Positions 48,953 through 51,418 of a stretch of DNA of 64,000 bases are shown piece after piece. The DNA comes from Arthrobacter tumbae (GTDB taxonomy: Bacteria; Actinomycetota; Actinomycetes; Actinomycetales; Micrococcaceae): the NCBI RefSeq assembly GCF_016907495.1, contig NZ_JAFBCC010000001.1, positions 2,976,001 through 3,040,000 of the forward strand, read 5' to 3'. The notes below the pieces were generated by a model. It was not told where the DNA came from, made no database searches, and was given only the letters and a program-made list of their open reading frames with translations. The position numbers and the translations under genes were made by a program. Position 1 is the first letter of the stretch. Each line of letters opens with the position of its first letter.

Positions 48953-50302
48953 GTGACCATTGTGCTGTTCATAGCCGGCGTGCTTTTTGTGGCCGTCGGT
49001 ATCGCGGTCTCCATTGCGCTGCACGAGGTGGGCCACCTGGTGCCCGCGAAACTATTCCGGGTGCGGGTCACGCAGTACATGATCGGCTTCGGTCCCACCA
49101 TCTTCTCCCGCCGCAAGGGCGAAACCGAATACGGCGTCAAGGCCCTCCCGCTGGGCGGGTATGTCTCGATGGTCGGCATGTTTCCTCCGGCGAACAAGGC
49201 CGACGGCGGTGCAACAGTCCGCCAGTCCAGCACCGGCATGTTTCAGCAGTTGGCTGCAGATGCCCGCCAGGCGGCGGCCGAACAGCTTCAGCCGGGTGAC
49301 GAGAAGAGAGTGTTCTACAAGCTCCCCATCTGGAAGCGCATCGTGATCATGCTCGGCGGGCCGCTGATGAACCTGCTGATCGGCATCGTCATGTTCGCCG
49401 TCCTCATCATGGGGTTCGGATCCGCGCAGGCAACCACCACGGTCTCTGAGGTCTACCAGTGTGTGGTTGCGGCCGATCAGCAGCAGGAGACAGGGCAGAC
49501 GGATTGCGGCCCTGCGGATCCGGCAGCTCCCGCGTTTGAGGCCGGACTCCAGCCGGGGGACCGCATCGTTGCCTTCGACGGACGGGACGTGACGAGTTGG
49601 AGTGAACTCTCCTCCTGGATCCGGGATGCCGCCGGTCAGGAAGTCCCGATCACCTATGTACGCGATGGCGAGACCATCAACGCAGCCATTGAACCGCTGC
49701 TCACCGAGCGTCCCGTCCCCGACGTCGACGGCAGGGCGATGCTGAACGACGACGGCACGCCGGTCATGCAGGAAGTCGGTTTCATCGGCGTCGGGTCCCA
49801 GCAGGAACTCGTGCCGCAACCGGCCACGGAGGTTCTGCCCGCGGTGGGCGACAGCCTGGTCCGCGTGACCGGCGTCGTGCTCAATCTGCCTCAACGGGTG
49901 GCGCAGGTGGCCGAAGCCGCGTTCTCCGATGCGCCGCGCGACCCCGAGGGCCCCATCAGTGTGGTGGGCGTAGGACGGATTGCGGGGGAGGTCTCCGCAA
50001 TGGAGGAAATTCCGTTCGAAGCCCGTGCAGCGACCCTGGTCGGCCTGGTGGGGGGCGTCAACCTCGCACTGTTCGTGTTCAACCTGATCCCCCTCCTGCC
50101 GCTCGACGGCGGCCACGTAGCCGGCGCCCTGTGGGAGGGGCTGCGGCGCGGCGTGGCGAAACTCTTCAAACATCCGGACCCGGGACCGTTCGATATGGCG
50201 AAGCTGCTGCCGGTCACCTACGCGGTCGCGATTCTCCTCATGGGGATGGGTGCGCTTCTCATATACGCCGATATCGTGAAGCCCGTCGATCTCTTCGGGT
50301 AG
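48953..50302 (+). CDS. rip1: Site-2 intramembrane protease (Rip1/RseP family, M50)
   Basis: A 449-residue intramembrane zinc protease that cleaves anti-sigma factors and other membrane substrates. Zinc ligands are in the HEVGH motif (His24, Glu25, His28) within the first helix; NLIPLLPLDGGH near residue 380 supplies the third ligand. A PDZ domain lies around residues 180-265 (PGDRIVAFDGRDVTSW). Four membrane segments are predicted. The GTG start has AAGGAA about nine bases upstream. The gene order dxr-rip-ispG is conserved in Actinobacteria, and its loss in mycobacteria alters envelope lipids and virulence-related signalling. Confidence 0.94.
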   Translation: MTIVLFIAGVLFVAVGIAVSIALHEVGHLVPAKLFRVRVTQYMIGFGPTIFSRRKGETEYGVKALPLGGYVSMVGMFPPANKADGGATVRQSSTGMFQQLAADARQAAAEQLQPGDEKRVFYKLPIWKRIVIMLGGPLMNLLIGIVMFAVLIMGFGSAQATTTVSEVYQCVVAADQQQETGQTDCGPADPAAPAFEAGLQPGDRIVAFDGRDVTSWSELSSWIRDAAGQEVPITYVRDGETINAAIEPLLTERPVPDVDGRAMLNDDGTPVMQEVGFIGVGSQQELVPQPATEVLPAVGDSLVRVTGVVLNLPQRVAQVAEAAFSDAPRDPEGPISVVGVGRIAGEVSAMEEIPFEARAATLVGLVGGVNLALFVFNLIPLLPLDGGHVAGALWEGLRRGVAKLFKHPDPGPFDMAKLLPVTYAVAILLMGMGALLIYADIVKPVDLFG

Positions 50303-50308
50303 GTTGAA

Positions 50309-50327
50309 TTTGAGAATTCATCTCAAA
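50309..50327. promoter_or_regulatory. Palindrome 1 upstream of the SatD-like gene
   Basis: TTTGAGA and TCTCAAA flank ATTCA: perfect 7-bp arms in an AT-rich island. It lies just before the -35. Confidence 0.65.
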
Positions 50328-50329
50328 TA

Positions 50330-50351
50330 GGTTGAATTTTGTAAGTCAACC
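50330..50351. promoter_or_regulatory. Palindrome 2 spanning the SatD-like gene promoter
   Basis: GGTTGA and TCAACC are inverted 6-bp arms with a 10-nt spacer; the left arm covers the -35. GGTTGAATTT also occurs as a direct repeat at 50302, so the region has several related half-sites. Confidence 0.6.
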
Positions 50352-50360
50352 TCTTAGAGT
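50332..50360 (+). promoter_or_regulatory. Promoter of the SatD-like gene, leaderless
   Basis: TTGAAT (50332-50337), a 17-nt spacer, and TAGAGT (50355-50360). Only six bases (CGAAAC) separate the -10 from the ATG at 50367, and no Shine-Dalgarno is present, so the mRNA should begin at the start codon. Confidence 0.75.
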
Positions 50361-50366
50361 CGAAAC

Positions 50367-50987
50367 ATGTACGTTCTGACGATCGATCAGCGGAACAGCA
50401 CCAACGAGCCCGATCGCGTTCCTACCCTGCTCCGCCACCTGGGTGGCGTCCCGACCGCGGTCCCGTTCGAGCGGTCGGTAGGAGATGAGATCCAGGGCGT
50501 CCTGGCAACCGGCGAAGACGTGATTGAAGCGGCGCTGCGCTGCCTGCGGGCCGGTGGGTGGTATGTCGGCATCGGCATCGGCACAGTGGAGCTTCCGCTG
50601 CCCGTGACCCCGCGCGAGGGAAGGGGGAGTGCCTTCGTGGCTGCGAGAGCCGCCGTCGAGCGGGCAAAAAAGACAGGGGACCGCGCACCCCTTGCCGTGG
50701 AGGGTACAGACGGCGCCGCTGACGCCGAAGGAGTGCTCTCACTCATTGGACGGTTCGTCATGCACCGGACCGATGCGGAGTGGCGCATCCTGGACCTCCT
50801 CGAACCGCAGCAGCGAGGAAGCCAGTCGGCGGTGGCCCGCACGCTGGACATCAGTCCGCAGGCGGTCAGCAAGGCAGTCTTCCGGTCAGCCTGGATCGAA
50901 GAGTGGGCTGCCCGTCCCGCCGCCGCAGTATTGTTGCAGCTGGCGGATGACAATGCTGGAAAACCGGCAGACGGGGACAGACACTGA
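50367..50987 (+). CDS. SatD-like protein with C-terminal helix-turn-helix
   Basis: A 206-residue protein resembling the SatD family of Firmicutes. The N-terminal strand MYVLTIDQRNS has Asp7 where SatD has IGD; VGDEIQGVL (38-46) matches GDEFQGLL, and YVGIGIGTVEL (66-76) with GSAFVAARAAVERAK matches the GIGIG...AREAI part. A MarR-like helix-turn-helix closes the protein (GSQSAVARTLDISPQAVSKA, residues 151-170). The Asp strand, GDE hairpin and GIGIG strand recall the palm domain of GGDEF and class III cyclases, but no enzyme activity is known. It probably controls itself through the palindromes in its promoter. The next gene overlaps its stop as TGATG. Confidence 0.78.
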   Translation: MYVLTIDQRNSTNEPDRVPTLLRHLGGVPTAVPFERSVGDEIQGVLATGEDVIEAALRCLRAGGWYVGIGIGTVELPLPVTPREGRGSAFVAARAAVERAKKTGDRAPLAVEGTDGAADAEGVLSLIGRFVMHRTDAEWRILDLLEPQQRGSQSAVARTLDISPQAVSKAVFRSAWIEEWAARPAAAVLLQLADDNAGKPADGDRH

Positions 50988-51418
50988 TGGAGATTCTTTG
51001 GGGCTCATTGGCCCTGCTCGTCGCAGGCGCTCTGGGATCGCCAATCACGCTCGCTGTCCTGCGCCTGGCGCGCGCGGTTGATGACCAGAAAACCCTTCAT
51101 GCTCCGATTTCCGATGCAGAGGCGGTACCGGTTGCCGACGGGGAACAGGAAGCCCCGATCGAGGAGGCCGCTCCGGACACACCGGGTGTGCTCCGCGGCG
51201 GGCTGGTGATCGGCATCCTGGAGCGCACGTCGGTGGCGCTCGCAATTCTGCTGAACGAACCGGTTGCCATTGCCTACGTCGTCGCCATCAAGGGACTGGG
51301 GCGTTACGCGGAGCTGAAGGAAACCCCCGCGGCCGCCGAACGGTTCATCATCGGGACGCTGACGTCGCTGTTGTGGGCCTGCGCTGTCGCGGGACTCACA
51401 GCTGCCTACCTGCTCTGA
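50987..51418 (+). CDS. Small membrane protein, DUF3307-like partner of the SatD-like protein
   Basis: A 143-residue membrane protein with segments at about 3-27, 70-103 and 118-143 and an acidic cytosolic loop (residues 40-66). The part AIKGLGRYAELKETPAAAERF followed by IIGTLTSLL resembles the C-terminal end of DUF3307 proteins, which accompany SatD genes in other phyla. Here the N-terminal DUF3307 portion is missing, so it looks like a shortened relative. The ATG shares its A with the preceding TGA, so translation is coupled. The function is unknown; a membrane receptor or anchor for the SatD-like regulator is my inference. Confidence 0.7.
   Translation: MEILWGSLALLVAGALGSPITLAVLRLARAVDDQKTLHAPISDAEAVPVADGEQEAPIEEAAPDTPGVLRGGLVIGILERTSVALAILLNEPVAIAYVVAIKGLGRYAELKETPAAAERFIIGTLTSLLWACAVAGLTAAYLL

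Follow-up and report, generated by a model that had tools for sequence, protein, structure and literature searches.

Background

To our knowledge, SatD and DUF3307 are named protein families without an established molecular function. The first takes its name from the secretion and acid tolerance gene D of Streptococcus mutans, and the S. mutans protein reportedly has a role in secretion and acid tolerance. In Streptococcus pyogenes, excerpts of one study (PMC11323703) describe satD, as assigned by eggNOG annotation, as an accessory gene present in 178 of 249 genomes, as the only accessory gene in the top quarter of essentiality, and as seemingly essential whichever strain or condition the compared Tn-seq studies used. 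The label 'SatD family' also appears in a Fusobacterium nucleatum annotation list (an excerpt of PMC10326533). In the literature searched, the Pfam model PF16264 (SatD) was not named, 'SatD family' and DUF3307 were rarely named, and among the matches listed no title or abstract opening linked SatD to cyclases. For the class III nucleotidyl cyclases, with which the SatD-like protein is compared below, an excerpt of PMC4886424 names the conserved metal-binding aspartates.

Genome organization and gene content

The locus described here lies in a window of 64,000 nucleotides (the whole stretch of DNA that was analysed) from Arthrobacter tumbae, whose genome is a single 3.70-Mb contig, and its genes are, from upstream to downstream, dxr, rseP (encoding an M50 protease), a satD-like gene, the gene for a membrane partner, a YCII-related gene and ispG. 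The satD-like reading frame (50367..50987, forward strand) encodes a putative regulator of 206 residues with a class III cyclase-like N-domain (about residues 1-112) and a C-terminal helix-turn-helix (HTH, about residues 137-171), and the partner frame (50987..51418, forward strand) a small membrane protein of 143 residues, in which a hydrophobic N-terminal segment is followed by an acidic and proline linker and then by a tail. The two frames overlap by one base, in TGATG. An earlier note on this DNA had described a 206-residue protein with the motifs Asp7, Gly39-Asp40-Glu41 and Gly68-Ile-Gly-Ile-Gly72, translationally coupled to a three-segment membrane protein; the genes and motifs agree with that account, three hydrophobic segments being returned by a Kyte-Doolittle scan. 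The span given there opened at 50309, 58 bases upstream of the satD-like frame; the reading frames stand, and the additional bases contain the operator described below.

Comparisons were made with 91 loci of the same order, a part of the homologue places located, with start codons set by rule, and with an Arthrobacter group consisting of the best 80 of 521 loci, whose record titles are mostly Arthrobacter, with a few Paenarthrobacter, Pseudarthrobacter and Specibacter, one Vibrio cholerae and one Acidobacteria. The last two records (WNZI01000023.1, L125, titled Vibrio cholerae 35D, and JABBNV010000060.1, L121, titled Acidobacteria bacterium) carry Arthrobacter-like SatD genes and are probably mislabelled or contaminated. 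The three closest named relatives are from Arthrobacter, with 81-92% identity in the SatD-like protein. Profiles were built from 78 of the 91 SatD-like loci, from 33 of 45 partner proteins (L026, with a shifted frame, was left out of the partner HMM), from 13 of 25 canonical SatDs, all from Actinomycetota and each matching PF16264, and from 18 of 20 cyclase loci.

HMM searches with SatD and DUF3307 had been proposed in the earlier note, and for the two single proteins they came back empty, whereas profile-profile comparison recovered homology on both sides. The window protein alone lies below the Pfam cut-off for PF16264, without a match at E-values up to 10; its top Pfam hits are HTH models below their own cut-offs, with MarR_2 (E 0.00045, 20.7 bits against a cut-off of 27) also matching 65 of the 78 homologues at E up to 1, and an HTH at about residues 137-171 is supported. 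The profile of the 78 homologues aligns with that of the canonical SatDs over 187 columns (hhalign probability 99.7, E 1.1e-26), at full length and with the HTH included, and PF16264 is matched by 50 of the 78 at E up to 1 (best 7.5e-12), so that the window protein is, by profile comparison, a divergent full-length SatD. It had previously been read as a SatD-type domain joined to an HTH; the SatD homology is upheld and the fusion is not, because the Pfam SatD model, 211 positions long, already covers the HTH. Throughout the 91 homologous loci Gly68, Gly70, Gly72, Gly87, Ala96 and Ala157 are invariant, and Glu41 is retained in 89, Asp40 in 84, Gly39 in 81 and Asp7 in 71.

Two further arrangements were noticed. 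One locus (L236) carries a canonical and a window-type SatD in tandem, which bears on the origin of the window type, and the A. tumbae genome holds a second SatD-like gene (L002, G000:C1:1715864-1716466) with Asn in place of Asp7 and without a partner. A mobile element was considered and rejected: the window protein has no match in 50,697 phage records at E 0.01, and tblastn of two canonical SatDs against plasmids returned none and one Arthrobacter plasmid.

The window partner matches no Pfam family, DUF3307 (PF11750) included, and DUF3307 is absent from the 18 Pfam families matched by the 33 partner proteins; membership of the partner in Pfam DUF3307 was therefore rejected. Membrane proteins encoded next to SatD genes, six in number and including three DUF3307 proteins, have a C-terminal tail with which the profile of the 33 partners aligns (hhalign probability 99.0, E 6.2e-18), in agreement with the earlier suggestion that the partner resembles the end of DUF3307. 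The shared tail has the motif LRGGxxIGxLER...KGLGRxxEL...ERFIIGT, common to the SatD-linked DUF3307 proteins. The Pfam DUF3307 domain itself corresponds to the N-terminal block of the SatD-linked proteins, and this block is missing from the window partner.

Operator and promoter

Upstream of the satD-like gene stands a dyad, GGTTGA-N10-TCAACC (50330..50351, -37 to -16 from the ATG; AGGTTGA-N10-TCAACCT with its flanking bases), which we interpret as an operator, and 28 bp further upstream a second, weaker copy (50302..50323) whose right arm is degenerate. At window 50300-50305 the rseP stop codon and this upstream copy share one base, the last of the former and the first of the latter. From a fixed-register logo, a putative -35 element (TTGAAT, 50332..50337, forward strand) lies in the left operator arm, the right arm falls inside the 17-bp spacer, and a putative -10 element follows (TAGAGT, conforming to TANNNT, 50355..50360, forward strand, -12 to -7). 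In ungapped alignments anchored on the start codon, TTG occupies -35 to -33 in 70/80 loci of the Arthrobacter group and in 45/91 of the order, TANNNT occupies -12 to -7 in 70/80 and 39/91 respectively, and a TTG at -35 is missing from 25 of the 68 order loci that have a partner. A generic sigma-70 scan called no promoter at this gene. Because the start codon is also the expected transcription start, the satD-like message should be leaderless, apparently beginning at the start codon; leaderless genes are reported from Actinobacteria in excerpts of PMC3160421 and PMC3898074.

Inverted repeats with 7-base arms recur in these upstream regions well above the numbers expected from dinucleotide shuffles. 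With a loop of 6 they occur in 45 of 56 order loci with a partner (8.1 expected), in 61 of 80 Arthrobacter-group loci (8.9 expected) and in 14 of 35 order loci without a partner (3.8 expected), and with a loop of 8 in 43/56 order loci with a partner (6.5) and 65/80 of the Arthrobacter group (8.7); the partner rule behind these counts (56 loci with a partner, 35 without) is stricter than the one behind the counts of pairing and Asp7 given below (68 with, 23 without). The Arthrobacter-group logo also contains a third half-site that overlaps the -10 element and is degenerate in the window.

Within its own genome the dyad occurs with at most one mismatch only at the satD-like promoter. A wide regulon was considered, since matches with up to three mismatches number 54 against 5 for a backward control, and was rejected on the strength of that single near-perfect site. 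Four of the other sites were inspected. Of the three that have two mismatches, two lie inside long open frames, as does the single three-mismatch site inspected, and the remaining two-mismatch site overlaps, as judged by eye, the start of another gene in a different geometry. The TCAACG/GGTTGA pair near the L002 paralogue was not counted as an operator either, because it sits in a 15-bp hairpin, just upstream of that gene, which may be a terminator.

An inverted-repeat operator laid over the -35 and -10 elements of an apparently leaderless promoter, essentially unique in its genome, appears to be what is new at this locus, and its fixed register over the gene's own promoter supports the transcription-regulating role that had been suggested for the protein. 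Palindromes are found upstream of canonical SatDs too. In 46 regions (46 of 56 loci gave one, two of these being the same place twice), loops of 5 occur in 27 against 6.0 expected and loops of 7 in 27 against 5.2 (single-base shuffles), with another half-site, e.g. ATGAAG-N7-CTTCAT, and odd loop lengths, so self-regulation looks like a property of the SatD family.

The HTH and the operator are the best supported parts of the system, and they would also suit a local repressor of the usual kind whose ligand domain has degenerated, controlling an unrelated membrane transporter or envelope protein without any nucleotide signalling; the persistence of the paralogue at G000:C1:1715864, which has lost Asp7 and the partner, speaks for this. 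The retention of Asp7 and Asp40-Glu41 in all paired copies and the presence of cyclase and cyclic-nucleotide-binding genes beside other DUF3307 genes speak against that explanation, which we consider improbable.

Contacts between protein and operator were sought by covariation. Residue 169, in the recognition helix, ranks second of 194 positions by mutual information with base -36, and the 115 loci with TTG at -35 divide into G with Lys (40), A with Arg (34), C with Gln or Asp (26) and other combinations (15). On a tree made without these columns, the independent pairs for and against are 3.0/0.2 for G/Lys, 3.0/0 for C/Gln-Asp and 0.5/0.3 for A/Arg, none of them significant, and for A and C at base -36 other protein positions fit equally well or better; a reading of base -36 by residue 169 is thus only suggestive, as a prediction.

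The N-domain and class III cyclases

The earlier note had likened the order of Asp strand, GDE hairpin and GIGIG strand to the palm fold of both GGDEF proteins and class III cyclases. Only the second half of the comparison survives, as a sequence-profile relation. Pooled SatD N-domains score 41.9 against the 18 class III cyclase domains (E 3.4e-6, one comparison), where 180 column-shuffled decoys reach at most 23.0, and a pool of 78 window-type and 33 canonical N-domains scores 45.5 (E 6.7e-7, one comparison) above a ceiling of 19.7 among 100 such decoys; separate SatD profiles score 31.9-33.8, with decoys at most 22.6. The corresponding hhalign probabilities are 68.5, 56.3 and 52.3 for the separate profiles and 87.7 and 92.0 for the pooled ones, and 35.3 when SatD and cyclase are aligned globally. 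Against a GGDEF profile, SatD scores 16.0-20.2, which is the decoy level (up to 17.3 in 30 GGDEF decoys run with one of the SatD profiles), as compared with 37.0 for a known cyclase, and a GGDEF kinship was rejected. We conclude, from profile scores, that the SatD N-domain is related to the class III nucleotidyl cyclases.

The match runs for about 65-90 columns, as far as the GxGxG strand, and pairs Asp7 with the first metal aspartate (FAD), Gly39-Asp40 with the GD hairpin and GIGIG with the RIGINTG strand; the FAD and GD aspartates are those that we take to be metal-binding in class III cyclases. The register becomes uncertain past that strand, and substrate-specifying and transition-state residues are not placed. 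Against 177,635 PDB sequences, the top hit of the canonical N-domain profile is 1ybt (E 0.047), which is also the sole one of 35 hits of the full canonical SatD profile to fall outside the HTH region (E 0.034), neither value being significant alone; the window-type profile gave no cyclase hit in the best 60 of 92. The entry carries the names lipJ and hydrolase, and is presumably the class III cyclase domain of Rv1900c.

A domain of this descent could belong to an active nucleotidyl cyclase or another NTP-converting enzyme, whose product, a cyclic or unusual nucleotide, would act on the membrane partner as on other DUF3307 proteins, the HTH only adjusting the enzyme's own dose. Both metal-site acids are kept, Asp7 being found in 145 of 145 paired copies, and some DUF3307 genes adjoin a genuine class III cyclase gene and cyclic-nucleotide-binding genes, as this would lead one to expect. 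A dedicated cyclase, however, seldom bears an operator-binding HTH of its own, and that the substrate-binding and transition-state residues are not placed in the alignment also counts against catalysis. On the latter point, an excerpt of PMC4886424 gives Rv1900c a His at the position of the transition-state Asn, so that this Asn is not required. All in all, we regard an active enzyme as unlikely.

Pairing with the membrane partner

According to the partner profile, the partner adjoins the satD-like gene in 68/91 loci of the order and in 77/80 of the Arthrobacter group. Asp7, present in every paired SatD, is lacking from 20 of 26 unpaired ones, among which are the second copy in this genome (Asn7) and L076, which has a gap at that position. 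Since the tree offers few independent events (2.4 independent pairs agree, 0 disagree and 3.6 show no difference; not significant), the association of Asp7 with pairing is only suggestive.

Order-wide, the partner is present in 111 of 198 genomes and the window-type SatD in 95. Another 32 partner loci were examined, all but one in genomes where no window-type SatD was hit. They adjoin a SatD in 29 cases (25 on the same strand and 4 on the opposite one) and none in 3, two of these lying at contig ends. The partner loci with a SatD on the opposite strand (L273, L284, L288 and L298) possibly contain two SatD types each. In 396 Actinomycetota genomes, canonical SatD and canonical DUF3307 co-occur in three and are adjacent in all three, and the partner tail adjoins 17 of 25 SatD loci phylum-wide; the loci without it in the flanks covered (8/25) are L213-L217, which are canonical, L229, at a contig end, L236 and L237. 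The pairing of the two genes, which the earlier note mentioned for other phyla, thus extends beyond close relatives within Actinomycetota. Among 14 DUF3307 loci, the tail is found in 3/3 that are SatD-linked and 0/11 that are not (E up to 0.001), as judged with two tail models, one built partly from the three SatD-linked DUF3307 loci themselves and the other from window-type partners alone; several of the unlinked loci have a degenerate ER motif.

The 11 DUF3307 loci without SatD were inspected for other neighbours, with flanks of up to 1.5 kb. Six (L199, L201, L204, L206, L207 and L209; a raw count) have a neighbour with the Pfam cNMP-binding domain, and a seventh (L203) has one by eye. This neighbour is divergent in L201, L203 and L206, which belong to one genus, and upstream on the same strand in the other four; a class III cyclase gene is present as well in L204, L207 and L209, and the seven loci come from four families. 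DUF3307 would appear from these neighbourhoods to be linked to cyclic-nucleotide signalling, its genes being found next to the cyclase-like SatD or else, in many cases, next to cyclic-nucleotide genes.

Overlapping genes, a tandem operator and a small membrane protein in second place also recall toxin-antitoxin modules. SatD would then be both autorepressor and antidote, the derepressed membrane protein would be harmful, and the cyclase-like domain would serve as a scaffold only; the S. pyogenes gene, accessory yet seemingly essential in the excerpts of PMC11323703, shows the pattern of an antidote or repressor. Such a module is difficult to reconcile with a chromosomal partner present in 49 of the 72 genera sampled from the order, with the conservation of metal-site acids needless for a scaffold, and with the lack of any phage match to the window protein noted above, and we think it quite improbable.

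Proposed mechanism

The reading that we prefer, and to which we give an even chance, is that of a nucleotide sensor that represses its own operon and is coupled to the membrane protein, working as a one-component switch. The SatD-like protein, probably as a dimer, would bind the GGTTGA-N10-TCAACC dyads over the -35 and -10 elements, for which the sequence evidence is strong, and so shut its own leaderless two-gene operon. The ligand of its cyclase-derived N-domain is most likely a nucleoside triphosphate with its metal, or else a nucleotide of cyclic or related type, given the domain's descent from a class III cyclase and the retention of both metal-site acids, and the bound nucleotide may change DNA binding. 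The co-translated partner would be the target whose dose is controlled. To judge from gene order, it most likely makes contact with the cyclase-like domain as well, at the membrane, and the states of the membrane and of the nucleotide may thereby be read together; the near-obligate pairing and the Asp7 kept in each paired copy argue for a dedicated target or contact of this kind. Loss of SatD would derepress the partner.

A wider proposition can be offered only tentatively, and we hold it to be doubtful. In it, SatD would be a repressor of cyclase descent that senses a nucleotide signal, or produces it, and keeps a membrane protein of DUF3307 type in check. DUF3307 proteins would form the membrane arm of signalling related to cyclic nucleotides, their companion being either SatD or a cNMP-binding protein, the latter frequently together with a cyclase, and streptococcal satD would be essential yet accessory since its loss unleashes the partner. 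The SatD switch could explain the essentiality of S. pyogenes satD: an accessory gene would be essential where present if a cell that lost the repressor alone fared worse than one that lost the complete module.

Under the switch that we propose, SatD and DUF3307 would acquire a testable function, with operator coordinates, a ligand class (nucleotides), a metal site and a near-obligate partner, and the locus suggests how the widespread and unexplained SatD family may work.

Comparison with known systems

The closest relative by sequence is the SatD family (PF16264) itself, with which the window protein shares the order of its motifs and a full-length alignment that includes the HTH; it differs in falling below detection by the family model, in having TIDQ where the SatD family has IGDxVxSR, and in the half-site of its operator. 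With DUF3307 (PF11750) the partner has in common the C-terminal tail of the SatD-linked members, whereas the N-terminal block that defines the family has no counterpart in it. The class III cyclases (PF00211; nearest solved structure by profile, 1ybt) have the metal Asp strand, the GD hairpin and the GIxxG strand in the same order as the SatD-like protein, which differs from them in bearing an HTH and in that its substrate and transition-state residues are not placed in the alignment. The DUF2652 proteins, as described in excerpts of PMC4886424, are likewise cytosolic, cyclase-like and of unknown function, and occur in Actinobacteria, Bacteroidetes and Proteobacteria; they belong to another Pfam family, all but one are single-domain proteins, and those excerpts note no pairing with DUF3307, in contrast to the SatD proteins described here.
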